This document shows positions 39,064 to 64,000 of a stretch of 64,000 nt of DNA, piece after piece. Made by a program: the position numbers and the translations under genes. Numbering within the stretch: position 1 is the first letter of the stretch; each line of letters starts with the position of its first letter. The DNA lies in assembly GCF_017349315.1 (NCBI RefSeq), contig NZ_JAFMPP010000004.1, positions 1-64,000 of the forward strand. The letters run 5' to 3'. The notes under the pieces were generated by a model, which saw nothing but the letters and a program-made list of their open reading frames with translations, was not told where the DNA came from and ran no database searches. The DNA is from Jiella flava. GTDB lineage: Bacteria; Pseudomonadota; Alphaproteobacteria; Rhizobiales; Rhizobiaceae.

Positions 39064-39759
39064 TCAGCTGTCGGGGCAATGCGCTCCGGTGGCGGCCCAG
39101 GCCTTATAGAGTTCGCCGAACTGTTTCTGAGTGCCGGGAACCGGCTTGCGTCCGGCGCCCGGATGCCAGGCCCAGCCGACCAAATCGTCATGGGCCATGT
39201 GGTCGACGAGGTCGGCGAGCGTCTTGCCGCCGTTACGGTCCTTGTCCTTGATCTGCCGGCAGATCTCGCCAAGCGTGCGGCCCTGCCAGGCCATCTCGAT
39301 CGGCGCCAGATGCCAGTTCGGATTGCCGGGGATCGACTTGATGTCGTCGCTCTGGGCAATCACCTTGACGTTGTTCGGCCCATGGCAGGTGTTGCACATC
39401 ATGCCCGGCACGCCGAAATTGGCCTGTCCACGTTCGACCGGTGGCTGGTGCGGATGCATGTCGAGGCCCTGCAAGGGGCGGTCGCCGGCCGGGTGACAGT
39501 TCACGCAGCGCGGATTGAGGAGCACCTTGCCGGTCTCCTCGAAGATCGCGATCGAGCGCTCTTTTTCGTCCTTGATGTTGTCGAAGTCCGAGGCGCTCTT
39601 CAGCTTGATGTCCTCGCTGGCCTTCTTCGGCGCGACCGCCGGCCGCGAGGGGGCGGGTGCCTCGGGTGCACGGTTCTGTGCGACGGCGGTGGCGGCGAGC
39701 GAAAGCGCGACGCCAAGGGCGATGACGAGTGCCTTGGACGGCCGGTGGAGGTGCAGCAT
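39064..39759 (-). CDS. c-type cytochrome subunit of a periplasmic molybdenum hydroxylase
   Basis: About 231 residues: a signal peptide (LVIALGVALSLAATAVA), then two haem-c motifs, CVNCH and CNTCH. Proteins of this type are encoded with IorAB-like hydroxylases and are annotated as isoquinoline 1-oxidoreductase subunits; they pass electrons from the hydroxylase to the respiratory chain. I chose the ATG at 39759 because it begins the signal peptide; a GTG at 39816 overlaps the iorB stop and would add a long n-region. It is the third gene of the operon. Confidence 0.8.
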   Translation of the reverse strand: MLHLHRPSKALVIALGVALSLAATAVAQNRAPEAPAPSRPAVAPKKASEDIKLKSASDFDNIKDEKERSIAIFEETGKVLLNPRCVNCHPAGDRPLQGLDMHPHQPPVERGQANFGVPGMMCNTCHGPNNVKVIAQSDDIKSIPGNPNWHLAPIEMAWQGRTLGEICRQIKDKDRNGGKTLADLVDHMAHDDLVGWAWHPGAGRKPVPGTQKQFGELYKAWAATGAHCPDS

Positions 39760-39812
39760 CCGTGTCCCTGATCTTGTCTTTGCGAAGCCGAATGGCCGGA
39801 TCAAATGCGACA

Positions 39813-41972
39813 TCACGCGACGAGGTCGCGTGATAGCGGCAAGCGCTGGACCGGGCGCCCGGTCAGTCGGCGCCAGGCATTGGCGACCGCGGGGCCGATC
39901 GGGGGTACGCCCGGCTCGCCGACGCCGGTCGGCGCCTCGCTCGACGGGATGATCGCGACCTCGACATGGGGCATTTCGGTGATGCGCAGAGACCGGTAGT
40001 CATTGAAGTTCGACTGCACCACCGCGCCGCCGTCGGTCAGGTCGATCGCGTCGAAGAGAATGGCGCCGAGGCCGTAGCCGATGCCGCCTTCCATCTGCGC
40101 CTTGATGATGTTCGGGTTGACCGCGACGCCGCAATCCACCGCGCACCAGACCTTCTGCACCTTGGGCAGACCGGTGTCGTCGAGCGAGGCCTCGACGATT
40201 TCTGCGACATAGGTGTTGAAGCTCTTGTGCACGGCAACGCCGCGCTGGTGGCCGTCGGGCAGGGCGGCATGGCCCCAGTCGGCCATTTCCGCGACTTTCT
40301 TCAAGACGCCGAGATGGCGCGGCGAATCCTTGAGCAGTGCCAGCCGGCCCTCGACCGGATCCTTGCCGGCCCGCTCGAGCAGCCGGTCGAGGAAGGTTTC
40401 GACCGCGAAGGCGGTGTGGGTGTGGCCGACCGAGCGCCACCAGAGTACCGGCACGCCGAGCTTGGTCTGGTAGGCGACGACCCGCAGATTGTCGATCGCA
40501 TAGGGCATGTCCGAGGCGCCCTCGACGGTGGTCTCGTCGAGCTCGTCCTTGCCCATGATCGATTGGCCGGCGATCTTCTGGTCCCAGCCGACGATGGCGC
40601 CGGTCTTGTCGACCGCCCCCTTGATCGAGTGGACGTAGATTGGCCGGTAGAAGCCGCCGCGAATGTCGTCCTCGCGGGTCCACATATGTTTGACCGGGCG
40701 GGTCATGCCCGAGGCTTTGAAGGCTGCGGCCGCCTCGCGCATATAGGGCGAGCCGAACTGCGCCCTGCGGCCGAAGGAGCCGCCGGCCAGCTGCATGTTG
40801 ATGCGCACCTTCGATGGATCGACGCCGCAAATGTCGGCGATCGCTTTCTGGTCCTGGCCGGGAAACTGTGAGCCATTATAGCAGTCGATCGAGCCGTCGG
40901 CGGCGCGGATCAGCACCGCGTCGAGAGGCTCCATCGGTGCGTGGGCGAGGAAGGGGAAGACAATCTCGGTGTCGAGCGAGGTGATGCCCTCCGATGCCAG
41001 AGCACCATCGACATCGCCCTTGTTGGCGGCTTTGAGGCCCTTCCCCTTCATCTCGGCGCGATAATCATCGACGATCTGCTGGCTGGAGCGGGTCTCGGCC
41101 TTGGAGAGGTCCCAGTCGATCTTCAGCGCGGCGCGGGCCTTGAGGGCGGTGAACGTGTCTTCGGCGAAGACCGCGACGCCCTGCGGGATCGGCTTGACGT
41201 CGACGACGCCCTTGATCGCCCGTGCGGCGCTGTCGTCGACGGCTTTGACCGTCGCGCCGAAGTGGTCGGCATGGGCGACCATCGCGATCAGCATGTCGTC
41301 GGCGAGAACGTCGAGGGTGAAGACCGCCTTGCCGTCGGTCTTGTCGTCGGTGTCGAGCTTGTGGCGATCCTGGCCGATCAGGGTGAAATTCTTCGGGTCC
41401 TTCAGGGCGACGTCCTTCGGCGGCTCGGTCTTGGCAGCCTTGTCGGCAAAGGCGCCGAAGCCCGATTCCTTGCCGGATTTTTCGTGCCGGATGCGACCCT
41501 TGACGACGGTGATCTCGTCGGCCGAAACGTTCCAATCCTTGGCGGCGGCCGCGACGAGCATCGCCTTGGCGGTGGCGCCAGCCTTGCGCATCTGCCCGTA
41601 GGAATTGGCGATCGAGGTCGAGCCACCAGTGCCCTGCAGGCCGAAGGCGAGGTTTTTGTAGAGCTCCTGATTGGCTGGCGCGGCGGCAACCCGCATCTGC
41701 GACCAGTCGGCGTCAAGCTCCTCGGCGACAAGCGTGGTGAGGCCGGTATAAGGACCCTGACCGAATTCGATATGCTTGGAGAGCACCGTCACCGTGTTGT
41801 CGGGGGCGACCCGGACAAAGGCGTTGAGATCGGCCTGCTGGCCTTCGGCGCCCTCTTTGGCGCCCTGGATGAGGGCGGCACGGGCATTAGGCGCCAACAG
41901 GGTGACGCCGATGACGAGGCCGGTGCCGGCTAGAAAGGCGCGGCGGCTCGGGCGGATGGTGGCGATGTCCAT
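39813..41972 (-). CDS. iorB: Molybdenum hydroxylase large subunit (IorB-like)
   Basis: A 719-residue xanthine-oxidase-family subunit that binds molybdopterin cytosine dinucleotide. A twin-arginine signal (RPSRRAFLAGTGLVIGV) sends the folded complex to the periplasm. GQGPYTGLTTLVAEELD, GGSFGRRAQFGSP, HTHTAFAVETFLD and the C-terminal GVGEPGVPPIGPAVANA (active-site Glu) are typical of the aldehyde/isoquinoline oxidoreductase group. The substrate is unknown. It follows iorA by 5 bp. A frame to 42311 is a shadow of iorA. Confidence 0.88.
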   Translation of the reverse strand: MDIATIRPSRRAFLAGTGLVIGVTLLAPNARAALIQGAKEGAEGQQADLNAFVRVAPDNTVTVLSKHIEFGQGPYTGLTTLVAEELDADWSQMRVAAAPANQELYKNLAFGLQGTGGSTSIANSYGQMRKAGATAKAMLVAAAAKDWNVSADEITVVKGRIRHEKSGKESGFGAFADKAAKTEPPKDVALKDPKNFTLIGQDRHKLDTDDKTDGKAVFTLDVLADDMLIAMVAHADHFGATVKAVDDSAARAIKGVVDVKPIPQGVAVFAEDTFTALKARAALKIDWDLSKAETRSSQQIVDDYRAEMKGKGLKAANKGDVDGALASEGITSLDTEIVFPFLAHAPMEPLDAVLIRAADGSIDCYNGSQFPGQDQKAIADICGVDPSKVRINMQLAGGSFGRRAQFGSPYMREAAAAFKASGMTRPVKHMWTREDDIRGGFYRPIYVHSIKGAVDKTGAIVGWDQKIAGQSIMGKDELDETTVEGASDMPYAIDNLRVVAYQTKLGVPVLWWRSVGHTHTAFAVETFLDRLLERAGKDPVEGRLALLKDSPRHLGVLKKVAEMADWGHAALPDGHQRGVAVHKSFNTYVAEIVEASLDDTGLPKVQKVWCAVDCGVAVNPNIIKAQMEGGIGYGLGAILFDAIDLTDGGAVVQSNFNDYRSLRITEMPHVEVAIIPSSEAPTGVGEPGVPPIGPAVANAWRRLTGRPVQRLPLSRDLVA

Positions 41973-49921: not shown

Positions 49922-50385
49922 GTCGAGTCCTCCAACTTAAAAACGGGCGAATGCACCGAGTGCGTGAGATGCAGAGACGGTGCGGGAAGTCTTCGCCATG
50001 GCCGTCGCGTCGGTTCGGGACCTCGTGCGAACAACTTTGTGGCGAGGCCTTAACAGCCCGGACGGGAAGACAAGCGTCGTTAAACGTTTGAGGTTGCGGG
50101 TAAAGCTCTCTACAAGTTAACGAAGAGTTCTTGTAAGCAATTGATTTTTAACTATCTTGACGACCCTCGCGGTGGAACGCCCGCGGTCAACGGGGACGAC
50201 TCTTGTCGGCCAAAGGGCGGGCTGGAAAAGCGGGAAGGAGCGGCCGCGCGTGCTTCCTGATCAATGCATGAACATGGAAAACGGGCCGTGTGGCGTGCCA
50301 CACGACTCGTCGGTGAAAAGTCCCGAATCATAAGCTGCAATCGGCCGCCGACGCGCGGCCTTCAAGCGATTTCTCTGAGCGTCCC
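49922..50385. other. Gene-free gap
   Basis: 464 bp without a credible gene. It contains an inverted repeat TACAAG/CTTGTA (50111-50135) in an AT-rich island, which may belong to the promoter of the Gly-rich gene, and a small CGTGTGGC/GCCACACG hairpin at 50287-50304 near the end of lolA. Confidence 0.45.
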
Positions 50386-51039
50386 TCAGCGGTTGCCGGT
50401 CTGACCTTGCGAAATCGCCGTGTAGGGGATCTTGAAGGCCGAATCCTGAATGTTTCCGCCGGTCTTGACGTTATAGATCATCACCGAGGTGTCTTTGCCC
50501 TGCTTGTCGCGGATGATCCACTGCTTCAGGTCGTCGGTCTTGGCATCGAACATCATGGTGATCCGCGAATTGCCGAAGATCGAGCGGTCGCCCATGACGA
50601 TGGTGACGAGGTCGGGATCGACCTTGACGCTTTGAATGTTCGCCTGCGACAGGTCGATGCGTCGCGACAAAAGCAGCTTCATAGGTGTCTGGGAGAGCGG
50701 ATAGGTCTCCCAGGTGTTCAGCTTCTTGTTGTTGATCGCGACGTTGGAGCCGTCGGCAATCACCCGCAGCGGCGAGTTGGCATAGTCGAAGCGCACCTTG
50801 CCCGGCCGCTCGATGTAGAACTTGCCTTCCTGCTGGCGGCCATTCGGGTCGAACTGTACGAAGTCGCCATACATCGCCTGGATGCTGGCGAAATGATCGG
50901 CGATCCGCTGGGCGACCGCGCCGGAGCTTTCCTGCGCCTTGGCGGCGGAAAGGCCGACCGGCACAAGCATGGCGGCGCAAGCGGCGGCGATCAGCGCGCG
51001 GCGGCTTAAAGCGCGGATTGAACGGATGATGCTGGCCAT
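50386..51039 (-). CDS. lolA: Outer-membrane lipoprotein carrier LolA-like protein
   Basis: A 217-residue periplasmic chaperone that carries lipoproteins from the inner membrane (LolCDE) towards the outer membrane. Signal peptide to about residue 35 (SAAKA). MYGDFVQFDPNGRQQEGKFYIERPGK and the following FDYANSPLRVIADG are the LolA core. It ends in a short polar tail. In many related genomes lolA lies directly after ftsK; here about 3 kb and other genes intervene, on the opposite side of ftsK. Confidence 0.85.
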   Translation of the reverse strand: MASIIRSIRALSRRALIAAACAAMLVPVGLSAAKAQESSGAVAQRIADHFASIQAMYGDFVQFDPNGRQQEGKFYIERPGKVRFDYANSPLRVIADGSNVAINNKKLNTWETYPLSQTPMKLLLSRRIDLSQANIQSVKVDPDLVTIVMGDRSIFGNSRITMMFDAKTDDLKQWIIRDKQGKDTSVMIYNVKTGGNIQDSAFKIPYTAISQGQTGNR

Positions 51040-51365
51040 CGTGATGTGGCTTCCTCTCTTGGAACGTACGCCCTTCGACGTCTCGCCGGTTGACCGGTGT
51101 TTTTAGGTTTACGCCGGTCGTTTGCCGGTGGTTCTAACGGCATATGTTGGGAAGGGTTCCTGGGGCTGCAATAGGGCCTAACCAAGGCGTGAGCGGCCGG
51201 CCCGCGGGCTCTGCGCATGATCGGCGATCGCTCTTGGGACCCGCTGACAGCGGACTGTGATGATCCGGGATTGCCCTTGCGCTCGAAGTCGTTGTCTTGC
51301 CGCATGAAGGGGCCGAAACGTCCTGCAACGTTTCGGCATCATGCTCCAGCCGCCGCGTTTGGGGC
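51040..51365. other. Gene-free gap with a stem-loop
   Basis: 326 bp between lolA and metC. The only element seen is a 10-bp stem, GCCGAAACGT / ACGTTTCGGC, at 51312-51337, 28 bp after the metC stop. It lacks a T-run but may end metC transcription. Confidence 0.45.
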
Positions 51366-52529
51366 TCAGCCGGCGGTGCCGGCCGTCGCGGCCAGGGCGG
51401 CAAAGCCGGCTTCGAGATCGGCTTTCAGATCGGCGACGTCTTCAAGCCCAACCTGCAGTCGGATGAAGGTGCCGTCCTTCGGTCCCTTGGCGACAGTGCG
51501 GTCGGAAAGGTCGACGGCGACGGCAAGGCTCTCATGGCCGCCCCAGGAGTAGCCGAGACCGATCAACTCCAGCGCGTCGAGGAAGGTCGCCGCTTGCTTG
51601 AAGCCGCCCGGCAGCAGGAAGGAAAACAGCCCCGAGCAGCCGGAGAACTGGCGGGCGTAGAGGGCGTGATCGAAGAAGGAGGGCAGCGCCGGGTGGCGGA
51701 CCTCGGCGACATCCTCGCGCCTCTCCAGCCACCGCGCCAATTCCAGCGCCGAAGCCTGGTGCCGCTCCAGCCGCACGCCCATCGTCTTCAAGCCGCGCAG
51801 CACCAGATAGACGTCGTCCGGCGCCGCATTGAGGCCGATCTGCATTTGCGTCTCGCGCAGCTGGGCGGCCGTCGCGGCGGTCGCTGAGACGCTGCCCATC
51901 ATCAGATCGGAATGGCCGCCCGGATATTTCGTCAGCGCATGGATCGACAGGTCGACGCCATGTGCGATCGGCCGGAAATAGAGCGGCGTCGCCCAGGTGT
52001 TGTCGAGCATGGTCACAGCGCCGCCGGCACGGGCGGCGGCGCAGACAGCGGCGACATCCATCATCTCGAAAGTGTTAGAGCCGGGCGCCTCAAGGAACAC
52101 CACCTTGGTGTTCGGCTTCATCAGATCGGCAATGCCGGCGCCGATATGAGGATCGAAATACGCGATCTCGACGCCCATCCGCCGCAAGGTGCCGTTACAA
52201 AATTGGCGGGTCGGCGTGTAGACGGAATCGACCACCAGGCAATGATCGCCGGCGCCGAGGAAGGCGAGTAGCGGAACCGTGATCGCGGCGAGACCGGATG
52301 GGACGAGAATAGTCTCATCCGCTCCTTCGAGTTCACTTAACGCGTCTTCCAGCGCCTTCGTCGTGGGGGTGCCGCGTAGTCCATAAGTATAAGGCAGGGA
52401 CTTTCGATGACGCATGGCATCGGTGCTCTCGAACAACACCGTTGAGGCATGAATCACGGGCGGATTGACGAACCCGTGCAGGCTGTGAGGGTCGTAGGGC
52501 CCATGAGCCAAAAGGGTATTGGGGCCCAT
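51366..52529 (-). CDS. metC: Cystathionine beta-lyase
   Basis: About 387 residues, a PLP enzyme of the Cys/Met metabolism family that splits cystathionine into homocysteine, pyruvate and ammonia. NPPVIHASTVLFE, YGLRGTPTTKALEDAL, VPSGLAAIT and the PLP-lysine motif HALTKYPGGHSD are diagnostic. Its place divergent to aapJ is the arrangement known from Rhizobium. The ATG at 52529 begins the conserved GPNTLLAHGPYDP; the ribosome site is weak and a TTG upstream (52556) is an alternative start. Confidence 0.9.
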   Translation of the reverse strand: MGPNTLLAHGPYDPHSLHGFVNPPVIHASTVLFESTDAMRHRKSLPYTYGLRGTPTTKALEDALSELEGADETILVPSGLAAITVPLLAFLGAGDHCLVVDSVYTPTRQFCNGTLRRMGVEIAYFDPHIGAGIADLMKPNTKVVFLEAPGSNTFEMMDVAAVCAAARAGGAVTMLDNTWATPLYFRPIAHGVDLSIHALTKYPGGHSDLMMGSVSATAATAAQLRETQMQIGLNAAPDDVYLVLRGLKTMGVRLERHQASALELARWLERREDVAEVRHPALPSFFDHALYARQFSGCSGLFSFLLPGGFKQAATFLDALELIGLGYSWGGHESLAVAVDLSDRTVAKGPKDGTFIRLQVGLEDVADLKADLEAGFAALAATAGTAG

Positions 52530-52637
52530 CTGCCGGTTTTTTGATCGCGCGTTGGTCAACTCTTCGGCTTTCTGTTCGGTTCGTCTGCAACGGTGGTGAA
52601 CTACGGGCATTTCGACTTGGAGGAAATGGACTCCAGC

Positions 52638-52666
52638 TTGACCCGGCTAAAATTTTGTCATGGAAT
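52638..52666 (+). promoter_or_regulatory. Candidate promoter of aapJQMP
   Basis: TTGACC and TGGAAT are separated by 17 bp, 110 bp before the aapJ start. A GC-rich imperfect hairpin (CGGTGCC … GGCACCG, about 52680-52706) lies between promoter and gene. No NtrC-type enhancer was recognised. Confidence 0.35.
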
Positions 52667-52776
52667 TGCCTTGGTTGCGACGGTGCCCGGCCGTTCAAAC
52701 GGCACCGCGCCGCTGCGCTGGAAGAACACGGCGTCAGCAAACCTAAAACGATAACCCAGATGGGGAAGGCTTCCTG

Positions 52777-53799
52777 ATGAAATCCAAGCTTCTGACCGCC
52801 TTGCTCGGCCTCGCGATCGTGGGGCTCGCCAGCGGCGCGGCCTCGGCAGACACGACGCTTCAGACCGTGAAGGCTCGCGGCCAACTCAAGTGCGGCGTCA
52901 ACACCGGGCTTCCGGGATTTGCTTCCCAGAACGACAAAGGCGAGTGGCAGGGACTCGACGTCGACTACTGTAAAGCCGTCGCCGCCGCGATCTTCGGCGA
53001 TCCGTCCAAGGTGCAGTATACGCCGCTGTCGGCTGTCCAGCGCTTCCCGGCGCTGCAGAACAACGAAATCGACATGTTGGCGCGCAACACCACCTGGACG
53101 ATGGACCGCGACACCACGCTCGGCCTGAACTTTGCCGGCGTGAACTACTATGACGGTCAGGGCTTCATGGTGAAGAAGGAGCTGGGTGTGAACTCGGCTC
53201 TGGAGCTGTCCGGCGCGTCGGTCTGCGTGCAGTCCGGCACCACCACCGAACTGAACCTGGCGGACTACTTCCGCACCAACAAGATGGACTACAAGCCGGT
53301 CGTCATCGAAGCCCAGTCGGACGTGAACTCGGCCTACGACTCCGGCCGCTGCGACGTGCTGACCACCGACGCCTCCGGTCTGGCAGCCTCGCGCCTCGAA
53401 ATGAAGAACCCGGACGACAACGTCATCCTCCCGGAGATCATCTCCAAGGAGCCGCTCGGCCCGGTCGTGCGCCAAGGCGACGATCAGTGGTTCAACATCG
53501 TCAAATGGACGCATTTCGCCCTTCTTGACGCAGAGGAGCTCGGCGTCACCAAGGAAAATGTCGACGAGATGATGAAGTCGAACAATCCGGAAATCCGGCG
53601 TCTTCTCGGCGAGGATAAGAACTTTGGTGAGTCGATCGGCCTGTCAAAGGACTGGGCGGTGAACGTCATCAAGGCCGTCGGCAACTATGGCGAGATCTTC
53701 GAGCGCAATATCGGCGTCAACACGCCGCTGAAGATCCAGCGCGGCCAGAACGCCCTGTGGACCGACGGTGGTCTGCAGTACGGCATGCCGATCCGCTAA
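52777..53799 (+). CDS. aapJ: General L-amino acid-binding periplasmic protein
   Basis: A 340-residue binding protein of the AapJ family that feeds a broad range of L-amino acids to the AapQMP transporter. Signal peptide cut near SGAASA. KARGQLKCGVNTGLPGFA, GLDVDYCKAVAAAIFGD and FPALQNNEIDMLARNTTWT are hallmark blocks of the general L-amino acid family. GGGAAGG precedes the ATG. A G-U containing 11-bp stem-loop follows the gene and may limit transcription into aapQ. Confidence 0.95.
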   Translation: MKSKLLTALLGLAIVGLASGAASADTTLQTVKARGQLKCGVNTGLPGFASQNDKGEWQGLDVDYCKAVAAAIFGDPSKVQYTPLSAVQRFPALQNNEIDMLARNTTWTMDRDTTLGLNFAGVNYYDGQGFMVKKELGVNSALELSGASVCVQSGTTTELNLADYFRTNKMDYKPVVIEAQSDVNSAYDSGRCDVLTTDASGLAASRLEMKNPDDNVILPEIISKEPLGPVVRQGDDQWFNIVKWTHFALLDAEELGVTKENVDEMMKSNNPEIRRLLGEDKNFGESIGLSKDWAVNVIKAVGNYGEIFERNIGVNTPLKIQRGQNALWTDGGLQYGMPIR

Positions 53800-53822
53800 G
53801 CGCCGGCTGGTGCGACGAGCTG

Positions 53823-53849
53823 CGGGCGTCCTTGTCTGAAGGGCGCCCG
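53823..53849 (+). promoter_or_regulatory. Stem-loop between aapJ and aapQ
   Basis: CGGGCGTCCTT and AAGGGCGCCCG pair over 11 bp with one G-U, loop of five bases, 24 bp after the aapJ stop. No T-run. Such hairpins keep the binding-protein mRNA more stable than the downstream permease mRNA. Confidence 0.6.
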
Positions 53850-54016
53850 TCATCCCAAGACCTTACGCGGCAGGCGTTTCGTCGAAAGGCGGGCGGATCT
53901 GACGTCCCCTTGCTCGTCCGTCGCCTCGTCGGCGGTGCCGATTGATCGCAGCACTGTGGATGGGGTCTGACATGGTCGGCCCGTCATCCGTTCACTCGTC
54001 ATAGGAGTTCGTCGCC

Positions 54017-55204
54017 ATGAGCGCCGACACACAAGCGGCCCCCTCGCGCTCGGCCGGGTCGCTTCTGACGAATCCGACGGTGCGTAGCATCGTCATTCAG
54101 GTCGCTTTGATTGTCTTTTTGGTCGGATTCGGCTGGTGGATCGTCGACAACACCGCGCGCAACCTCGCCGCGGCCAATATCGCCTCCGGCTTCGGCTTTT
54201 TGTGGTCCCGCGCCGGCTTCGACATCGCGATCACCCCGATTCCTTACGATTCGAACGCCACCTATGGCCACGCGATGGTCGTCGGTGCGGTCAACACGCT
54301 GATCATCTCGGCCGCCGGCATCGTTTTCGCCACCATCCTCGGCTTTCTGGTCGGCATCGCCCGGCTGTCGGGCAACTTCCTCGTCCGCACGCTGGCGACG
54401 GTCTATGTCGAGACCTTCCGCAATATTCCGCCACTTCTGGTCATCTTGTTCTGGTATTTCGGCGTGATCTCGGTGCTCGGCAGCCCACGCGGCCTGCAGC
54501 CGAACATCTTCGGGCTGTATCTCACCAACCGCGGTCTGCAGACGCCGGGCCTGATCTTCGGCGCGCTCGCTTATGCCTCGCTGGTCGCTTTTGCGGTCGG
54601 TGTCGTCGCCTTGATCGTGATCGCCCGGCGCAATAAGCGGCATCAGCTCGCCACCGGCGAGCGCAAGCCGCTGCTGTGGACCGCCATCGCCCTGCTTGTC
54701 GGCCTGCCGCTTCTCACCTTCATCGTCACCGGCTTGCCGGCGACCTTCGATTTCCCCGAACCGGGGCGCTTCAATCTGCGCGGCGGCTTCAACGTCCATC
54801 CGGAATTCATCGCCCTGTGGCTGGCGTTGTCGATTTATACCGGCGCCTTTATCGCCGAGATCGTGCGCGCCGGCATTTTGTCGGTGTCGAAAGGTCAGAA
54901 CGAAGCCGCCTCGGCCCTCGGGCTCAGCCGTAGCCAGTCGCTGCGTCTCGTCGTGGTGCCCCAGGCCTTGCGGGTGATCATTCCGCCGCTGACCAGCCAG
55001 TATCTGAACCTGACCAAGAACTCCTCCCTCGGCCTCGCCGTCGGCTATCCGGAGCTCGTCGCGGTGGGCTCGACGGTGCTCAATCAGTCCGGCCAGTCGA
55101 TCGAGGTCGTCTGTATCTGGATGATCGTCTATCTGACGATCAGCCTGAGCGTCTCGGTCTTCATGAACTGGTTCAATGCCAAGATGGCGCTGGTCGAGCG
55201 CTGA
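54017..55204 (+). CDS. aapQ: General L-amino acid permease subunit AapQ
   Basis: A 395-residue permease. An N-terminal helix (about 25-45) precedes a large periplasmic loop. The HisMQ-type core helices lie at about 90-395 with the EAA loop QNEAASALGLSRSQSLRLVVVP, cited by position (about 294-315). It forms the membrane channel with AapM. AGGAG precedes the ATG. It lies between aapJ and aapM. Confidence 0.94.
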   Translation: MSADTQAAPSRSAGSLLTNPTVRSIVIQVALIVFLVGFGWWIVDNTARNLAAANIASGFGFLWSRAGFDIAITPIPYDSNATYGHAMVVGAVNTLIISAAGIVFATILGFLVGIARLSGNFLVRTLATVYVETFRNIPPLLVILFWYFGVISVLGSPRGLQPNIFGLYLTNRGLQTPGLIFGALAYASLVAFAVGVVALIVIARRNKRHQLATGERKPLLWTAIALLVGLPLLTFIVTGLPATFDFPEPGRFNLRGGFNVHPEFIALWLALSIYTGAFIAEIVRAGILSVSKGQNEAASALGLSRSQSLRLVVVPQALRVIIPPLTSQYLNLTKNSSLGLAVGYPELVAVGSTVLNQSGQSIEVVCIWMIVYLTISLSVSVFMNWFNAKMALVER

Positions 55205-55216
55205 GGAGCCTGAGAC

Positions 55217-56716
55217 ATGGAAGAACAGGTTTTCCAATATGTCGCCACGGAGCAGAAGGCAGCGCTGCCGCCGCCGCCGAGCGAAGTGGGCGCCTTCGGC
55301 ACCGTCCGGCGCAATCTCTTTGCCACGCCCGTCGATTCCGCCCTCTCCATCGCCGCGGGCGTCTTCATCGTCTGGACCGTGTGGCACATCGTCGAGTGGG
55401 CGCTGATCGACGCGGTGTTCTCCGGTTCCAACCGCGACGCCTGTCTGGTCGCAGGCGGCGGCCATGGCGGCGCCTGCTGGGCGTTCATCCGGGCAAAATT
55501 CGGTCAGTTCGTCTACGGCATCTATCCGTTCGGCGAGCGCTGGCGGGTCGACGTCCTCCTGGTGGCTCTGGTGATTCTGACCGCGGGCATCGCGATTCCG
55601 AAGCTGCCGTACAAGCGGGCGACCGCCATCCTGCTCTTCGGCGTCTTCCCGGTGGTGACGCTGGTGCTGTTGACCGGCGGCCGCTTCGACTTTGCCGGGG
55701 GTGAACTGGCGTTGTTGTTCCTGATCGCCGCCGGCATCACCATCAGCGATGTCTCGGCCGAGCCCGAGGTCGGTTTCCATAGCCTGCCGGTGAAAGGGGC
55801 CGTGGTCGCGGCGTTGGTCTCACTGCTGGCGATCCTCGCCGCCGATCTGGTCGACGCGCGCACCGTCGAGTTTCTCGACTTCCGCTTCTCGATCCTGTCC
55901 TTCATCTCCTTCGTGGCGGCGCTTGTTGCGCTGGGCCTCGTCATCTTCGCCGGCTTTGCCGCGCGGCGCGGCGGCGGCAATGTCGCGCGGATGTTCTTCC
56001 CCGCCGTCGCGGTGGTTCTGTTCGTCTTTTTGATGTCGACGGATTTCGGCCTCAGCCCGGTCCCGACCAATCTATGGGGCGGTCTGATGCTGACCCTGGT
56101 CGTCGCGCTGTCGGGCATCGCCGCCTCGCTGCCACTCGGTATCTTGCTGGCGCTTGGGCGCCGGTCGCAAATGCCGGCGGTCAAGCTGCTTTCGGTGATC
56201 TTCATCGAGTTCTGGCGCGGGGTGCCGCTGATCACCGTCCTGTTCATGGCCAACTTCATGCTGCCGCTGTTCATGCCGGAGGGCGTCACCTTCAATCAGC
56301 TGCTGCGAGCCTGCGTCGGTGTCGCGCTGTTCTCCGCGGCCTATATGGCGGAGGTCATCCGCGGCGGCCTGCAGGCAATTCCGAAGGGCCAATACGAGGG
56401 CGCCGACGCGATGGCGCTGACCTATTGGCAAAAGATGCGGCTGATCATCCTGCCGCAGGCGTTGAAGCTGGTGATCCCGGGGATCGTCAACACCTTCATC
56501 GGGCTCTTCAAGGACACCAGCCTCGTCTACATCATCGGCCTGGCCGACCTGCTCGGCACGGTGCGGCGCGGCTTCAACGATCCGAACTGGATCACCCCCT
56601 CGACGCCGGCGACGGGCCTGATCTTTGCCGCTTTCATCTATTGGCTCTTCTGCTTCTCGATGTCGCGCTATTCGATCTACACCGAACGCCGGCTCGACAC
56701 CGGGCACAAACGATAA
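55217..56716 (+). CDS. aapM: General L-amino acid permease subunit AapM
   Basis: A 499-residue permease, longer than HisM because of extra N-terminal helices (about 45-250) as in all AapM proteins. The ABC permease core occupies about 285-495 and carries the EAA loop [22 protein letters not shown] (about 394-415). GAGGAG precedes the ATG. It is 12 bp downstream of aapQ. Confidence 0.94.
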
Positions 56717-56736
56717 CAAAGCTGAGGATTCCTGAC

Positions 56737-57531
56737 ATGAGCCTCCAACACGAAGCCGCAGCCGAGACCAAGCCGGCCACGACCATGACGATCTCCGACG
56801 AGATCGCCGTCGAGATGCTCGGCGTGAACAAATGGTATGGCGAGTTTCACGTTCTCAGGGACATCAATCTCACCGTGCGCCGGGGCGAGCGGATCGTCAT
56901 CTGCGGCCCCTCCGGTTCGGGCAAGTCGACCACCATCCGCTGCATCAACCGGCTGGAGGATCACCAGAAGGGCAAGATCGTCGTCGACGGCATTGAGCTC
57001 ACCAACGATCTGAAGAAGATCGATGAGGTGCGGCGCGAGGTCGGGATGGTGTTCCAGCACTTCAATCTGTTCCCGCATCTCACCATTTTGGAGAACTGCA
57101 CCCTCGCGCCGATTTGGGTCCGCAAGATGCCCAAAAAGAAGGCCGAGGAGATTGCGATGCACTATCTCTCGCGGGTGAAGATCCCCGAGCAGGCGAACAA
57201 ATATCCCGGTCAGCTTTCGGGCGGTCAGCAGCAGCGCGTGGCGATTGCCCGTTCGCTCTGCATGAACCCGAAGGTGATGCTGTTCGATGAGCCGACCTCG
57301 GCCCTTGACCCGGAGATGATCAAGGAAGTGCTCGACGTTATGGTGGGGCTGGCCGAAGAGGGGATGACGATGCTGTGCGTCACCCACGAGATGGGGTTTG
57401 CCCGTCAGGTGGCAAACCGGGTGATCTTCATGGATGCCGGCCAGATCGTCGAGCAGAACGAGCCGCATGCCTTCTTCACCGACCCGCAGCACGAGCGCAC
57501 GAAGCTCTTCCTGTCGCAGATCCTGCACTGA
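56737..57531 (+). CDS. aapP: General L-amino acid transport ATPase AapP
   Basis: A 264-residue HisP/GlnQ-type ATPase that powers AapQM. Walker [11 protein letters not shown]-loop [10 protein letters not shown], signature [15 protein letters not shown], Walker [15 protein letters not shown] and switch His in VTHEMGF are all intact. The ATG at 56737 lies 20 bp after the aapM stop with GAGGA upstream; the longer open frame reaching 56074 is a shadow of aapM. Last gene of the operon, followed by a strong terminator. Confidence 0.96.
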
Positions 57532-57588
57532 GCGCGATCCGCCGCGCCGCCCGGCAGGCGAAAGGTCTGCGACCACCGGCAGTCCACG

Positions 57589-57627
57589 ACGCCCCGGCCA
57601 TCAACGGATATGGCCGGGGCGTTTTTC
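57589..57627 (+). terminator. Rho-independent terminator of the aap operon
   Basis: A 13-bp perfect stem (ACGCCCCGGCCAT / ATGGCCGGGGCGT), eight-base loop and a TTTTT run, about 58 bp after the aapP stop. The clearest terminator in the window. Confidence 0.92.
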
Positions 57628-57806
57628 ATTGCGCGCCCGTCGAGCTCGGTGGCGTCTCTGCCGCGATGTCGACGCTTTGATTTTTGCGCGCGGTCTTAAC
57701 GCTCGATTAGGGCTCCCGGTAGCTCGATCGGCGTATACAACTTTAAATTATAAAAATTCGATGTATGCTTGCCGTTGCGGAAATTTGAACGGGGAGGGCA
57801 GGCGCC

Positions 57807-60803
57807 GTGGCCAGGACTCTGCTGATTTGGTTGAGCGCGTTTCTCCTCGCCGTCACTGCAGTTTCGACCGTGCGAGCCAACTGCGCGGCGTTGCAGGATA
57901 CCCCGCAGGTGCCGACCGATCCGGCCTTGTGCAAACGACTCGACCCGGTCGTGCGCAAACCCGCGGATCTGCCGCTCAACGAATATGAGAAGGCGATCAA
58001 CCAATATTTCGGACACTTCTGCCACCGTAACACCAAGGCTGGCTGGGTTCGGGACAAATATGTCAGGGATACGGGTCCCTATGTCGCGAGCTTGATCAAT
58101 GGCGCCTGGGTCGGTGCCGACCGTGGTACCCATGCCCCGGTGCTGATTTGGTATTCGCCGGAGTTCTATCAATGGCTGAAGAAGGCCCGCCTGGAGGACG
58201 AAAGCAAGCGTCCGGCCGTCGAGCCCTCACCGCCGGACGGGTCGATGATCGTCAAGGAGATGTATCCGGCGCCGGCCGCGCTCTGCGCCAAGAATGACCC
58301 GCTGATGTTGAAGCCGACCAACGGCGCCGCCTTCATGGTCCGCTCGGCGAAGTCTTCCCATGATGGCTGGTATTGGGGTTGGTACGGCTGGAGCGACGAT
58401 CCGACCGCCAATATCGATTGGCCGCCGCGCAAAACCAACGGCCTGCCCTATCAAGGCTTCGGACAATATTGTCTCAACTGCCACGCCTCGGCCAAGCACC
58501 ATTCGACCTTTTCCAGCCTGACCAATATCGAGGGCGAACCCGGCCGCCCGATCGCCTTCCTGTCGCAGGATTTCGCGCTCAATCTGGACAGCGATCCGCA
58601 TCATAAGGCGATGACCGACATCGCGCCGGCCGTCGACGAACCGAAGCCGGCACCAGCCATGCTCAATCCGGATGTTGCGGCGCTCTTCAACTATGTCATC
58701 TCGGCCAGCAAGGCGGATCGCGCGGCGGACGCGCTGAAGATGCCCTCGGCGAGCTACGACGTCGTCTGGGTCAAGGAACACGTCAAGACGACGTCGAAAA
58801 GCCAGTTTCTGACCTCGGACCAATGCGTCGGATGCCACGACGCCGGCGGTACGGGGCTGCAATACGACATGACCAAGCCGGCGCCGCTCGATCCGGATCT
58901 AAATCCCGACGGTACGAAGATGATCAACATGTCGCCCTATGGCACCTGGCGCAATTCGCCGATGGGGCTGGCCGGGCGCGACCCGATCTTCTTCTCGCAG
59001 CTCGCCAGCGAGACGCAGACGTTTCATCCGGAAAAAGCCGCCGAGGTCCAGTCGGTTTGCCTCGGCTGTCACGGCATCCAGGGTCAGCGCCAGTTTCAGC
59101 TCGACGCGTTGGCCAAGGGCGAGAAGAGCTGCCCGGATTTCGAACGCTCCACGGTCGATGCCGTGCCCTATCCGCCGGACAACCCATCAGCGCCGCACGC
59201 CGATTTCGGCGCGCTCGCCCGCGACGGCATTTCCTGCAGCGCCTGCCATCATGCCGTCTTCAAGGATGCCGACGTGATCAAGGCCAAGCTGGACCCGAGC
59301 AGCCGATGCGTCGTTGCGCGGCAGGATCTGCTCAATCCGAAAAAGCTTGCCGAGGGCTTTGCCCGCACCTTTACCGGCAGCTACTTCGTCGGCCCGGCCG
59401 ATAAGCTGAAAGGACCCTTCGTCAAACCGCAGACAACGCCGATGCACAACGCCCTCGGCATTCAGCCCGAACATGACGACACATTCCTGAAATCGGATGT
59501 CTGCGGCAGCTGTCACACGGTGCATCTGCCGATCTTCGATGAGGGAACGCCGCTCGGCTATACATTCGAGCAGACGACCTATCCGGAATGGGCGTTCTCC
59601 GACTATCGCACGGGTGTGACGGCGAACAAGACACTGCCGGGCGGCCCCGGGCCCAAGGCCGAAAGCTGTCAGGGCTGCCACATGCAAAGCCACGACGCGG
59701 CCGGCAACCCGCTGGTCTCCAAGATCGCCAGCATCCAGGAGCACAGCAATTTTCCCGAGGTGGACAATGGCCTCGGGGCGGCGGCGATCGATGTCGAGCG
59801 CCGCAAGAACTTCGCCCTCCATACGCTTGTCGGCCTCAATGTCTTCCTGATCGAGATGGCCAAGCAGTTTCCTGATTTTCTCGGTATCGCGGTCGAAGAT
59901 CCAATGCTGGTCAAGAAAGGGATCGCCGATATCGAGACCACCTATGCCAAGATGCTGGACAACGCCCAGAACCTCTCGGCCTCGATCGCGGTGATCGGCG
60001 TCTCGCGCGAGGGCGACCGGTTGCGCGCCAAAGTGCGGATCGATTCCAAAGTCGGCCACAAATTTCCCTCCGGCGTCGGCTTTCGCCGGGCTTTCATCGA
60101 GTTTCGGGCACTGGATGCCGACCAGCAGCCCTTGTGGACCTCAGGGGGGACGAACAAGGCGGGCGTGATCGTCGATGGCGACGGTCAGCCGCTGCCGGGT
60201 GAGTTATGGTGGAAGCCGGACTGCTCCGCCCGCATCGCCCCGCTGGAGCGCCGGCATGAACCGCATTTCCAGATCATCACCGCGCAAAGCGAAGCGCAGA
60301 TCTATCAGGAATTGGTTTCGGCGCCGGCACCCTCGGGGCCGAAAAACTGCGGCCACGGGGCCGAGCCCGCGGGCGCGCTCACGACGAGCTTCCTGTCGAT
60401 CTGCGGTCACGTGAAGGACAATCGCATCCTGCCGTCGGGCTACCTGCCCTTCGCCGAGCGGCTGAAGATCGCCAATGCGCTTGGTTCAAAAGGTGAGGCG
60501 CTCGCCCACGACACATCGCCCGTGGGGGTCGGCGATGATCCCGACTACAAGACCGGCGGCGGTGACACCGTGACCTATGAGATCGACCTCAAAAGCCTGC
60601 CGCGCGCAGTCGCTGACGTCGAGGCGACGCTTTATTACCAGTCGATCCCGCCCTTCTATCTGCAGGACCGCTTCTGCACGGCGAAGGGCACTGACCGCGA
60701 CCGTCTGGTCCATCTGACCAGCGAGTTGAAACTCGACGATACCCAAGCGGCCCACTGGAAGCTGAAGATGGTTTCGTCAGGGCTCGTCCCGGTGCCGCGA
60801 TAG
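57807..60803 (+). CDS. Secreted multihaem cytochrome with P460-like N-terminal domain
   Basis: A 998-residue periplasmic or extracellular protein. Signal peptide to about residue 24. Residues about 105-245 look like a cytochrome P460 domain: WYSPEFYQWLKKARL, DGSMIVKEMYP (K150 as candidate haem-linking lysine), GWYWGWYGWS and a first haem motif CLNCH (222-226). Five more CxxCH motifs follow: CVGCH (340-344), CLGCH (418-422), CSACH (477-481), CGSCH (566-570) and CQGCH (621-625). The last 300 residues form a beta-rich domain (KFPSGVGFRRAFIEF). The GTG at 57807 has GGAGG upstream. No partner gene is adjacent; the substrate is unknown. Confidence 0.78.
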   Translation: MARTLLIWLSAFLLAVTAVSTVRANCAALQDTPQVPTDPALCKRLDPVVRKPADLPLNEYEKAINQYFGHFCHRNTKAGWVRDKYVRDTGPYVASLINGAWVGADRGTHAPVLIWYSPEFYQWLKKARLEDESKRPAVEPSPPDGSMIVKEMYPAPAALCAKNDPLMLKPTNGAAFMVRSAKSSHDGWYWGWYGWSDDPTANIDWPPRKTNGLPYQGFGQYCLNCHASAKHHSTFSSLTNIEGEPGRPIAFLSQDFALNLDSDPHHKAMTDIAPAVDEPKPAPAMLNPDVAALFNYVISASKADRAADALKMPSASYDVVWVKEHVKTTSKSQFLTSDQCVGCHDAGGTGLQYDMTKPAPLDPDLNPDGTKMINMSPYGTWRNSPMGLAGRDPIFFSQLASETQTFHPEKAAEVQSVCLGCHGIQGQRQFQLDALAKGEKSCPDFERSTVDAVPYPPDNPSAPHADFGALARDGISCSACHHAVFKDADVIKAKLDPSSRCVVARQDLLNPKKLAEGFARTFTGSYFVGPADKLKGPFVKPQTTPMHNALGIQPEHDDTFLKSDVCGSCHTVHLPIFDEGTPLGYTFEQTTYPEWAFSDYRTGVTANKTLPGGPGPKAESCQGCHMQSHDAAGNPLVSKIASIQEHSNFPEVDNGLGAAAIDVERRKNFALHTLVGLNVFLIEMAKQFPDFLGIAVEDPMLVKKGIADIETTYAKMLDNAQNLSASIAVIGVSREGDRLRAKVRIDSKVGHKFPSGVGFRRAFIEFRALDADQQPLWTSGGTNKAGVIVDGDGQPLPGELWWKPDCSARIAPLERRHEPHFQIITAQSEAQIYQELVSAPAPSGPKNCGHGAEPAGALTTSFLSICGHVKDNRILPSGYLPFAERLKIANALGSKGEALAHDTSPVGVGDDPDYKTGGGDTVTYEIDLKSLPRAVADVEATLYYQSIPPFYLQDRFCTAKGTDRDRLVHLTSELKLDDTQAAHWKLKMVSSGLVPVPR

Positions 60804-60951
60804 CGTCAGCAGCCGCGCAGTGTTTCAGCGCTTTGAACGTGAACTGCAATTCTTCCTTGCATCTGGTTGCGGCTACAAACCGCCGAGGGGCCGCAAGGGA
60901 ACCCGGGTGTCACGGCGCCGTTATCTCCGGATAACCTAATTGGGGGGTCCC

Positions 60952-62130
60952 TTGTCGTCGGAAAAGGAAGCCGCGAGGCGGAGCGAGCCACGCTCCACCA
61001 CCATCTCCCCGACCATCGGCCTCGTCAACACACAGCATTTTCAAAACGGCCCGCGCTGGGCGGTGATCGGGATTTTCCTGATCCTGTTCTTCGGCGCGCT
61101 CTACCTTGTGGCGAGTTTCATCTTGCCGGTGATCCTGGCGGTGCTCTTTGCCCTCGTGATGAGTCCGATTGTCCGCTTCATGCGGCGGCGGCTGAGAATT
61201 TGGGAGCCGATCTCGGCGGGTATGCTCGTCGTCGGCTCGCTCATGGCGCTGGTGCTTGGGTTCTACATGCTGAGCGATCCGATCACGAACCTTGTCAACA
61301 ACGCGCCGCGCTATGCGTCCGCTGTCGATAGTGAACTGCGGGCCATGCGCGATCGGCTGAACCGCTTTCAGACCGCGCAGCAGGAAGTGCAAAAGGCAGC
61401 GTCGGCCGATAAGACGAAGGTGCCGCAGCCGGACAAGCCGCAGGAAGTCATTGTCAAAAACCCCGGCCTGCTCGACAACGCCACCCAGGCGCTGCCGCAA
61501 ATCCTGGCGTCGATCGCCTTCTCGCTGATCTTTCTGTTCTTTCTTCTCTCTTCCGGCGACCTCTTCTACAGCAAGCTGGTGCGGGCGATGCCGACGCTGT
61601 CGGACAAGAAACGCGCCCTCCACATCGCTCATGATATCGAGCGCGAGCTGTCGCGTTATCTCTTCACCATCACGCTGATCAATGTCTGTCTCGGCATCGC
61701 CGTCGGCACCTGCCTGTGGTGGGTCGGCATGCCGACGCCGATCGTCTTCGGCGCGCTGGCGACGCTGCTCAACTTCATCCCCTATCTCGGTTCGTTGATG
61801 GGCATGGCTCTGGTTGGCGTGATCGCGCTGGCAGATTTCGGAAGTGTCAGCGAAGCGCTGGTGCCGGTGTTGCTCTATCTTGCCTGCACGACGATGGAGG
61901 GCCAGTTCCTGACGCCGATGATCGTCGGCCGTCGGCTGGAGATGAACGCGGCGGCAGTGTTTCTGTCGGTGGCGTTCTGGGGCTGGATCTGGGGTGTCGT
62001 CGGGATGTTCCTCGCCGTGCCGCTGATGGTCTGTATCAAGGTATTTGCGAGTTATATCGAGCCACTGGCGGCGTTCGGCGATTTTCTCTCGGCCGAACAG
62101 CCCCGCCATCCCGACGAAGACGACGATTGA
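60952..62130 (+). CDS. AI-2E family transporter (PerM-like)
   Basis: About 392 residues: seven or eight helices and a cytosolic coiled stretch of about 110-165. TLLNFIPYLGSLMG and the C-terminal GMFLAVPLMVCIKVFA are marks of the AI-2E/PerM permease family, which exports autoinducer 2 or acts in ion homeostasis in different members. I chose the TTG at 60952, which has a GGGGGG ribosome site; a TTG at 60940 lies within that G-run. It is followed by a dispersed repeat. Confidence 0.82.
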   Translation: MSSEKEAARRSEPRSTTISPTIGLVNTQHFQNGPRWAVIGIFLILFFGALYLVASFILPVILAVLFALVMSPIVRFMRRRLRIWEPISAGMLVVGSLMALVLGFYMLSDPITNLVNNAPRYASAVDSELRAMRDRLNRFQTAQQEVQKAASADKTKVPQPDKPQEVIVKNPGLLDNATQALPQILASIAFSLIFLFFLLSSGDLFYSKLVRAMPTLSDKKRALHIAHDIERELSRYLFTITLINVCLGIAVGTCLWWVGMPTPIVFGALATLLNFIPYLGSLMGMALVGVIALADFGSVSEALVPVLLYLACTTMEGQFLTPMIVGRRLEMNAAAVFLSVAFWGWIWGVVGMFLAVPLMVCIKVFASYIEPLAAFGDFLSAEQPRHPDEDDD

Positions 62131-62213
62131 GGGAATCTCGCAGAGGTTTGAAAGTGGAGACGGTCAGCGCCCGTTTTTGCATGGACGCCGCCCGCGGCCT
62201 TGAAATATCGGTG

Positions 62214-62305
62214 TGAAAATCGGGGTCGATTTTCGGCAAAGTGAGGCATCGATTCCAAGGGTGAGAGTGACCTTTCTGCGTCCCATAGGACGCAGTCAGC
62301 TCTAG
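62214..62305 (-). repeat. Dispersed palindromic repeat, copy C
   Basis: On the minus strand this reads CTAGAGCTGACTGCGTCC and so on through GACGCAGAAAGGT to CCGAAAATCGACCCCGATTTTC, in the same order as copy A near 1.5 kb. Its first bases supply the TAG stop of the short-chain dehydrogenase gene. Confidence 0.75.
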
Positions 62306-63039
62306 TGTTCGTAGATCATCTTGCGGGTCATGCCGCCATCGACGATCAGCGTCTGGCCGGTGATGAAGCCGGCCTTCTCGCCATCAAGGAGAAAGCTCGC
62401 GGCTTCGGCGATGTCGCGTGGCTCGCCCACCCGCCCGACGAGATGCTGCGCATGATCGACCGGCCGCAGCTCTTCGCCGGAGACGTTGATCCAGCCGGGC
62501 GCGACGGCATTGACGCGGACGTCGGGCGCCAAGCTGACGGCCAGCGAATGGGTGAGGGCAAAGAGGCCGCCTTTGGTCGCCGAATAGGACTCGGTCTCCG
62601 CCTCTGACATGAAGGCTCGGGTCGAGGTGACGATCAGCATGGCACCGTTGTTGCCGCGCAGCTCGGCGCCCGCATGTTTGGCGAAGAGGAAGCTCTGCGA
62701 GAGATTGACGTCGAGGACACGGTGCCAATCCTCGTAGGGGAGATCTTCGACCGCGACGCGCTCCATGATCCCCGCATTGCAGACGACATTGTCGATCCGC
62801 CCGAAGCGCTCGACGCTTTTGCGCACGGCTCCGGCCACATCGGTCTCATTCGCGACGTCGCCGGTGATGGTCAGGATACGCCCAGCGTCGCCGCTGCCCT
62901 CGGCAAGCGCCGCCAAGCCGGCCTCGTCAGTATCCATCGCGACGACCCGGCCGCCATCGGCGACAAGCTTGAGCGCGATCGCTCGGCCGATCCCGGCGGC
63001 GGCGCCAGTTACGAGGGTGATCTTATCGGCGAGGCTCAT
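62302..63039 (-). CDS. Short-chain dehydrogenase/reductase
   Basis: A 245-residue classical SDR with NAD(P) binding motif VTGAAAGIGRAIAL (residues 10-23), the NAG motif CNAGIMER, and the catalytic YSATKGG with its upstream Ser in VTSTRA. DTDEAGL after strand 2 (Asp) suggests NAD preference. Substrate unknown. The last codons read into a dispersed repeat that supplies the stop. Confidence 0.88.
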   Translation of the reverse strand: MSLADKITLVTGAAAGIGRAIALKLVADGGRVVAMDTDEAGLAALAEGSGDAGRILTITGDVANETDVAGAVRKSVERFGRIDNVVCNAGIMERVAVEDLPYEDWHRVLDVNLSQSFLFAKHAGAELRGNNGAMLIVTSTRAFMSEAETESYSATKGGLFALTHSLAVSLAPDVRVNAVAPGWINVSGEELRPVDHAQHLVGRVGEPRDIAEAASFLLDGEKAGFITGQTLIVDGGMTRKMIYEH

Positions 63040-63173
63040 GACTGTTTCCGCTCCGCTCTCGCATCGCCCCTGGCCGTTGGGATCGATGTCCGGCCGGTGG
63101 GCCTGAGAGCTTCAAATGACATGGACGGAGGTTGCGGCAATCGTGATCGCGATATGCGGCACACCAGAATGAT

Positions 63174-63207
63174 CGGGCCGGCGCTTCGGCAACGAAGCAC
63201 CGGCCCG
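63174..63207. terminator. Stem-loop between the SDR and OmpA genes
   Basis: CGGGCCGGCGCTTCG and CGAAGCACCGGCCCG form a 15-bp stem with one mismatch around a GCAA loop, about 25 bp after the stop of the OmpA-domain gene. A TTT follows on the plus strand only; on the minus strand termination is plausible but weak. Confidence 0.5.
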
Positions 63208-63231
63208 TTTCACAAAGGACGTTGGAGCCCC

Positions 63232-64000
63232 TTAGTTCCGCGAGGTCTCGATCGGCCTCACCAGTGGGGTGATGCGGCGCAGCGTGACCCGGCGGTTTTC
63301 GCGGTTCGGCGCCTGGGTGTTCACCTTCAGCCCTTCTTCGCCATAGCCCTGGGTGACGAGATTTTCCGGCGGAACGTCGAAATATTTCGTCAGGGCCGCA
63401 GCGACCGCTTCGGCTCGCTTGTCAGACAGGTCGAGATTGGCGAGCTGGCTGCCGACCGCGTCGGTATGGCCTTCGACGAGGAAGGTCTCCGATGGGTTCT
63501 TGTCGACGATCTTGTTGATCGCCTCGGCGAGTGCCTGCAGCTTGCCGACCTGACTCTCGGTGATCTGCGCCGAGCCGAAGTCGAAATTGATCGTGCTGAG
63601 GTCGATCCGGCGCGTCTTGGCGCGCAGGCGCTGCGACCGCAACACTTCATCGACCGAATAGATCCGGTTCACCGTTTCGACCGGCGGCGCAATCAGCGTG
63701 CGATAGTAGAGCTCTTCGTCGGGGCGTGACGTGTCGACGATATACTCGTCCTCCGGGATGTCGACACGCAGCGGCGGCAGATCGCGACCCGGATCGACCT
63801 CGTAGGTCGGCTGGCGATCATCACGGGCGTAAGGATCGTAGAACAGCACGACCTCGCGGCCATCGGGCTCGATCCGCGAGCGGCGGATAATCTCGCCATA
63901 GCGATTGGTGACGGTGACGACCTTGACACCGTTGTCACGGATCACCGTCTGGCGCACCCGACCTTGCGGCAGGCGATCATAATAACTCTCGCGCGAGTCG
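63232..64000 (-). CDS. OmpA-family protein, C-terminal part (cut by the window edge)
   Basis: The frame runs off the right end, so only the C-terminal 255 or so residues are seen; the GTG at 63957 is internal. The last 120 residues form an OmpA-like peptidoglycan-binding domain (NFDFGSAQI, VEGHTDAVGSQLANLDLSDKRAE, GYGEEGLKV). The preceding part, rich in R, D and Y, has no recognised domain. Such proteins anchor the outer membrane to peptidoglycan. Confidence 0.85.
   Translation of the reverse strand, partial: DSRESYYDRLPQGRVRQTVIRDNGVKVVTVTNRYGEIIRRSRIEPDGREVVLFYDPYARDDRQPTYEVDPGRDLPPLRVDIPEDEYIVDTSRPDEELYYRTLIAPPVETVNRIYSVDEVLRSQRLRAKTRRIDLSTINFDFGSAQITESQVGKLQALAEAINKIVDKNPSETFLVEGHTDAVGSQLANLDLSDKRAEAVAAALTKYFDVPPENLVTQGYGEEGLKVNTQAPNRENRRVTLRRITPLVRPIETSRN

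Follow-up and report, generated by a model that had tools for sequence, protein, structure and literature searches.

A cytochrome P460-like domain and a pentahaem cytochrome module on a single predicted exported protein of Jiella flava

Cytochrome P460 proteins (PF16694) carry a haem cross-linked to a lysine, which is residue 78 in McP460 and residue 106 in NsP460 of Nitrosomonas sp. AL212 (PMC11928373, Table 2), and in the active members a distal carboxylate, Glu96 in NeP460 and Asp102 in McP460, serves as a proton relay (PMC11928373). NsP460, which has the lysine together with an alanine, is inactive on hydroxylamine, and a single change of that alanine to glutamate (A131E) conferred activity (PMC11928373). 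The same source describes 'halfway house' P460s with non-polar pockets, whose function it gives as unresolved, as well as hydroxylamine oxidoreductase (HAO), which is cross-linked to a tyrosine and is structurally unrelated to P460 proteins. Among multihaem cytochromes, the pentahaem cytochrome c552 of Thermochromatium tepidum (5ze8) has been grouped with ExtKL and GSU2801 of Geobacter and with sPHC/lPHC of cable bacteria (PMC11976967), sequences that were not compared with the protein studied here. The cable-bacterial lPHCtX, a large pentahaem cytochrome fused to a truncated haemoglobin, is proposed in that source to be an alternative terminal oxidase. Here, a gene that joins a P460 domain to a pentahaem module was analyzed in a stretch of 64,000 nucleotides from Jiella flava (contig NZ_JAFMPP010000004.1, positions 1 to 64,000 of the forward strand; hereafter the window). 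No description of a P460-multihaem fusion was found in literature searches covering titles and the starts of abstracts, and the fusion combines known parts in a new way.

The fusion gene (57807..60803, + strand, as are all of its features given below) encodes 998 residues in a frame that is open from a GTG start to the stop. Residues 1-25 (57807..57881) resemble a signal peptide, with a hydrophobic stretch followed by Cys26, as judged by eye and not by a predictor. They are followed by a fusion-specific N-terminal extension (residues 26-104, 57882..58118), which is partly helical in the structural model and can be aligned among the fusions but only poorly with small P460-like proteins. The P460 domain spans approximately residues 105-245 (58119..58541) and is closed by the first CxxCH motif at residue 222 (58470..58484), which was placed by both the motif scan and the family alignment and represents the haem site of this domain. 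The other five CxxCH motifs, located by the motif scan, are at residues 340 (58824..58838, the first haem of the pentahaem module), 418 (59058..59072), 477 (59235..59249), 566 (59502..59516) and 621 (59667..59681), and the module together with a beta-rich C-terminal domain occupies residues ~315-998 (58749..60800). Among 2,000 shuffled sequences, none had more than 1 such motif (mean 0.018), against six in the actual 998 residues. In the full-length model, the tail is beta-rich from about residue 720. An earlier note, made from the sequence alone, had described a secreted protein of this length with six CxxCH motifs, the first of them ending a P460-like region, and a beta-rich tail, a description that these results bear out. 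Of the 22 cysteines, 12 lie within haem motifs, and the remaining ten are all invariant in a 13-row alignment (A3), which fits an exported, disulphide-bonded protein. The fusion protein is apparently exported.

The gene is one of 26 aligned family members. The 26-row alignment contains one row per locus and omits a locus without a P460 part (L022) and an interrupted one (L055), while the copies of G307 and G094 are fragments. Seven further loci (L014-L020) were dropped from the alignment, six of which share motif positions with L002-L006 and L008, and the seventh of which (L020) shares its contig position with L007.

From this protein alone, the P460 assignment is marginal, because the PF16694 match over residues 143-231 scores 27.5 bits, barely above the cut-off of 27. 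At the level of sequence profiles, P460 homology is settled by evidence from the family. All but one of 22 members matched PF16694 at E <= 0.01, and a 22-row profile (the 22-row alignment, A5, omits L004, L005, L006 and L008) matched the solved cytochrome P460 structures 9hrk (E 1.1e-5) and 6hiu (E 1.5e-5). When 16 fusion domains were compared with 13 small P460-like proteins by hhalign, the match reached 97.6% (E 4.1e-12) and covered approximately residues 126-241, whereas 20 column-shuffled decoys reached at most 0.81%. With the three haem-motif columns masked on each side, the comparison still gave 95.6% (E 1.3e-8), the decoys having been run for the unmasked comparison only. The small P460-like set began as 30 loci, which yielded 15 sequences; one of these failed a motif score, leaving 14, and L083 was also omitted from the 13 rows used in hhalign. 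As for the set, it is not a random sample, because the motif score favours P460-like rows. A weaker ten-row profile also matched P460 structures at E 0.003-0.004 (0.0044 for 6hiu). The profile search that had been proposed as a check on the N-terminal region thus returned a significant family match, and residues 105-245 proved a fair outline of the domain, although the significant profile match extends only over ~126-241. In addition, the model of the P460 domain (pLDDT 77.5) had seven P460 structures as its top seven Foldseek matches (E 0.044-0.2, TM-scores by target of 0.38-0.42), a match that is weak when taken alone. Neither of the outcomes that the earlier note had named as refuting it was obtained. 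Conservation is poor in the first half of the domain. In 398 Pseudomonadota genomes, 57 Pfam P460 matches were found, 54 of which lie in open frames of <=544 aa (only frame length was compared); the other three, in frames of >1,000 aa, are all P460-pentahaem fusions.

The five-haem part with its beta domain is, as judged by alignment, a known and separable unit, since it is found alone in Sulfurovum. In hhalign, the fusion module matched this stand-alone Sulfurovum protein, which has 555 residues and five CxxCH motifs without a P460 part, at 100% (E 9.4e-50) over 493 columns. The T. tepidum cytochrome 5ze8 was matched by profile (E 2.6e-7, with the best stretch within the beta domain) and by fold (E 3.5e-4), and the whole model had no other fold match at E <= 0.001. 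A P460-type domain and a multihaem wire on one chain, as the earlier note had suggested, are thus both supported. The only Pfam family over its cut-off besides P460 was Cytochrom_C (24.5 vs 21.3), around the second haem motif. A GHKFPSG motif (60054..60074) is aligned with PHAMPTG of 5ze8 and contains His751, which is invariant (26/26 fusions) and a candidate distal haem ligand. The fusion thus shares with 5ze8 a pentahaem module and a GHxxPxG-like motif, and differs from it by the N-terminal P460 domain. Apart from those in CxxCH motifs, the module has invariant histidines at 672, 751 and 820, all of which are matched in the Sulfurovum protein, so that at most three of the five module haems could be bis-His via invariant residues; the other haems may be Met-ligated or open.

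Within the P460 domain, Lys150 (58254..58256), previously picked out as a candidate haem-linking lysine, was placed by profile alignment on residue 78 of 6hiu (McP460, E 0.0044) and, in a weak match, on residue 106 of 6amg (NsP460, E 0.44), in chain numbering, which are the positions of the cross-linked lysines. A lysine occupies this column in 26/26 fusion members, compared with 9/14 small P460-like proteins. The column at which active P460s carry Glu or Asp was located via McP460, whose acid lies two residues before a Met common to the alignments. Here the fusion has Ala175 (58329..58331), and the family has 21 Ala and 5 Thr in 26 rows and never an acid. At the same column the small P460-like proteins have Gln in 8/14, an acid in 2/14 and other residues in 4/14; as they mostly lack the acid too, its loss is not special to the fusions. 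Other residues in the domain are almost invariant. His109 (58131..58133) is present in 26/26 fusions, at a column that is a gap in 14/14 small proteins, and lies three residues before Val112, whose column is aligned, by count, with the P460 capping position. Asp186 is found in 25/26 fusions, where 12/14 small proteins have Gly, and Glu151 is kept in 25/26 fusions. His109, Asp186 or Glu151 may serve as an alternative proton relay in place of the acid. Compared with cytochrome P460, the fusions therefore share a homologous core, the CxxCH motif, the lysine at the cross-link position and, with NsP460, the distal Ala, and they add the N-terminal extension, His109, Asp186 and the five-haem module.

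These features are best read, with slightly more confidence than doubt, as those of a single-chain periplasmic oxidoreductase, with a P460 haem as the binding site for a small molecule and a pentahaem wire through which that haem gives or takes electrons. Probably bonded to Lys150, the P460 haem would be of low potential with its distal site open, and the small, reactive ligand that it binds would most likely be a nitrogen oxide or a hydroxylamine-like compound. Electrons would move between this haem and the pentahaem wire, and between the wire and a general carrier in the periplasm, for instance cytochrome c. Such a layout would work like HAO, with a catalytic P460 haem and relay haems, but would be built from other parts; the likeness to HAO is one of working only, and no HAO family member was among the matches listed in the Pfam and profile searches of the fusion. 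Without the carboxylate of the active P460s, the enzyme would either act on something other than hydroxylamine or pass protons through a different conserved residue, for which His109, Asp186 and Glu151 are the candidates. As for the direction of electron flow, analogy points both ways: conservation of the lysine leans towards oxidation, and the parallel with lPHCtX leans towards reduction.

Several results weigh against an oxidoreductase of this kind. The distal acid, as far as alignment tells, is absent in 26/26 fusion rows. The full-length model, built from 13 rows, is poor (mean pLDDT 47) and usable only in its N-terminal portion and over some of the tail; residues 243-555 are too poor for a comparison of haem stacking with 5ze8 or AvECN. 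The best fold match of the P460 domain (E 0.044) is below usual significance, and the ten-row profile search placed a TraM chain, which is unrelated, in among the P460 matches at E 0.044. A common operon partner was sought by clustering the neighbours of 27 loci (blastp E <= 1e-8), and no electron-transfer partner occurred in more than one lineage, the largest neighbour cluster being generic ABC ATPases. A link to denitrification was likewise rejected: NirK (TIGR02376) was over its cut-off in 3/21 carriers of the fusion and in 3/25 non-carriers, a survey in which eight of the 21 carriers come from the own genus, including the genome of the window, and the 25 non-carriers were hand-picked from genomes with no fusion listed. 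NirK had no match in the genome of the window itself, where HAO, AMO, NOR and NrfA were not searched for.

Three other explanations were weighed. In one of them, which appears unlikely, the protein is a reductive end-point enzyme, passing electrons from a carrier through five haems to the P460 haem, which would reduce nitric oxide (NO), nitrite, O2 or peroxide. A distant profile match around haem motifs 5-6 to the cytochrome c-552 chains 2rf7 and 4wjy (E 0.004-0.005), which we take to be NrfA, would suit such an enzyme. The catalytic haem motif of NrfA is, however, CxxCK, and this motif was not found in the fusion, in which all six motifs are CxxCH. P460 haem potentials are low, about -300 to -424 mV (PMC11928373), which favours reduction, and the design is shared with lPHCtX, in which a large pentahaem cytochrome likewise carries a haem domain that binds ligands (PMC11976967). 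The two are likened by description only, and in lPHCtX, which comes from other bacteria, the domain is a globin, not P460; moreover, its oxidase role is itself only proposed (PMC11976967). In the characterised relatives, furthermore, the lysine that is invariant here accompanies oxidation.

The lysine also bears on the suggestion of the earlier note that the protein oxidises hydroxylamine, here to NO or nitrous oxide (N2O), with the wire removing the electrons. Both hydroxylamine-oxidising P460s have this lysine (PMC11928373, Table 2), and His109 and Asp186 could stand in for the missing acid, but the carboxylate column holds Ala or Thr in every fusion, and NsP460 with the same Lys and Ala is inactive (PMC11928373). 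No ammonia-oxidation gene was seen by eye among the frames of 50000-64000, and the genome was not searched for them. Canonical hydroxylamine oxidation is thus disfavoured by the alignments, and a hydroxylamine oxidase working by the known mechanism was ruled out as the principal explanation by the lack of the distal acid; a hydroxylamine oxidase proper seems quite improbable to us. A buffer or sensor that binds NO or carbon monoxide (CO) like cytochrome c'-beta, with the wire merely holding the haem ferrous, would agree with the Ala/Thr of the distal acid column and the Val112 of the capping column, which are small or non-polar, and with the known P460s that have non-polar pockets (PMC11928373). 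Cytochromes c'-beta, however, are without the lysine in Table 2 of PMC11928373, a buffer hardly warrants the expense of five wire haems, and no signalling domain is among the domain matches of the chain, which leaves this explanation with little probability. Beyond the oxidoreductase reading favoured above, the fusion could represent an undescribed enzyme class, a wired P460 without the canonical carboxylate in which the conserved His109/Asp186 pair would handle a different small molecule and electrons would pass via a five-haem module related to extracellular cytochrome wires. In that case the HAO layout would have arisen a second time, independently; we put this class forward as a tentative and rather doubtful proposal.

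The fusion family has a patchy distribution, which takes in Alphaproteobacteria and other Pseudomonadota together with a single genome bin from Acidobacteriota. At a threshold of E <= 1e-10, the fusion was found in 8/61 genomes of relatives, all from the own genus, of which 8/10 genomes carry it. It was also present in 14/385 Alphaproteobacteria, including two fragments (G307 and G094) and one copy with an internal stop (G398), and in 6/299 Pseudomonadota, four of which had already been counted. A scan of genome contigs, covering close relatives only, gave 12 loci, including those in the Acidobacteriota bin and a Thiobacillaceae bin, and plasmid records gave 2 of 72,556. A viral or phage origin was rejected: viral contigs gave 16 pattern matches, none of them a relative, and phages gave no match. 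Copies that are interrupted or decayed are seen in L055 (G398), with one in-frame TAG, and in G094:C14, with fragments containing stops. In a tree of 23 rows (without L004-L006), which has some long branches, 9/20 poorly supported inner branches and a midpoint root only, the clade of the window groups with Acidisphaera (Acetobacteraceae) with support of 99/99. The copy of Aurantimonas endophytica groups with a copy from another family (100/100), suggesting horizontal transfer.

In the window, the fusion gene stands alone. A terminator-like hairpin (57588..57623, + strand) with a 14-pair stem, including 10 G-C pairs, and a T tail separates it from ABC transporter genes upstream; the scan found 6 such sites in the region, with 3.8 expected. 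The next gene downstream is of the AI-2E transporter type, and three loci of the genus (L002, L003 and L007) have similar neighbours by eye. A partly conserved box in eight genus members lies at 57738-57765, 42-69 bases before the fusion start, with an invariant AACTT and T.TA about 20 bases further; it is a possible promoter, with no match in a sigma-70 scan. The claim that the gene has no partners thus stands for the window and for these three loci, but not for G373 (L052), in which dihaem and then monohaem cytochrome c genes directly follow the fusion with a 4-base overlap and a 1-base gap, an arrangement that fits electron exchange with soluble carriers. After these cytochromes, at 8019-12700 of L052, are genes for a universal-stress/PCP_red protein, a radical SAM/SPASM/PCP_red protein and a flavoprotein of the amine-oxidase family, possibly a haem or tetrapyrrole pathway. 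Elsewhere, in Paracoccus seriniphilus, genes for Na+-NQR and a gene of the cytochrome c3 family lie within ~8 kb of the fusion, and G408 has ccmE-, ccmF-, ccmG- and ccmH-like genes near it by eye. In three lineages (L011, L045 and L049), a gene for an EamA-like transporter, identified by eye, lies directly upstream on the same strand, with a 66-base overlap or 49 and 38 bases off. Another frame of the window (39064-39816, - strand), 250 residues long, has a hydrophobic stretch in its N-terminal part, two CxxCH motifs and no Pfam match at E <= 1e-5. In the same genome, contig C23:296000-312000 (L065) encodes a Photo_RC protein (E 4e-103) and a tetrahaem cytochrome of the reaction centre (CytoC_RC, E 5e-101), indicating that the host is probably an anoxygenic phototroph.

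Lysine-bearing P460s with non-polar pockets are described in PMC11928373 without a resolved function, and the fusion ties a haem domain of this kind physically to an electron wire. The fusion family is therefore a direct handle on what such P460 haems do and on the direction in which their electrons flow.

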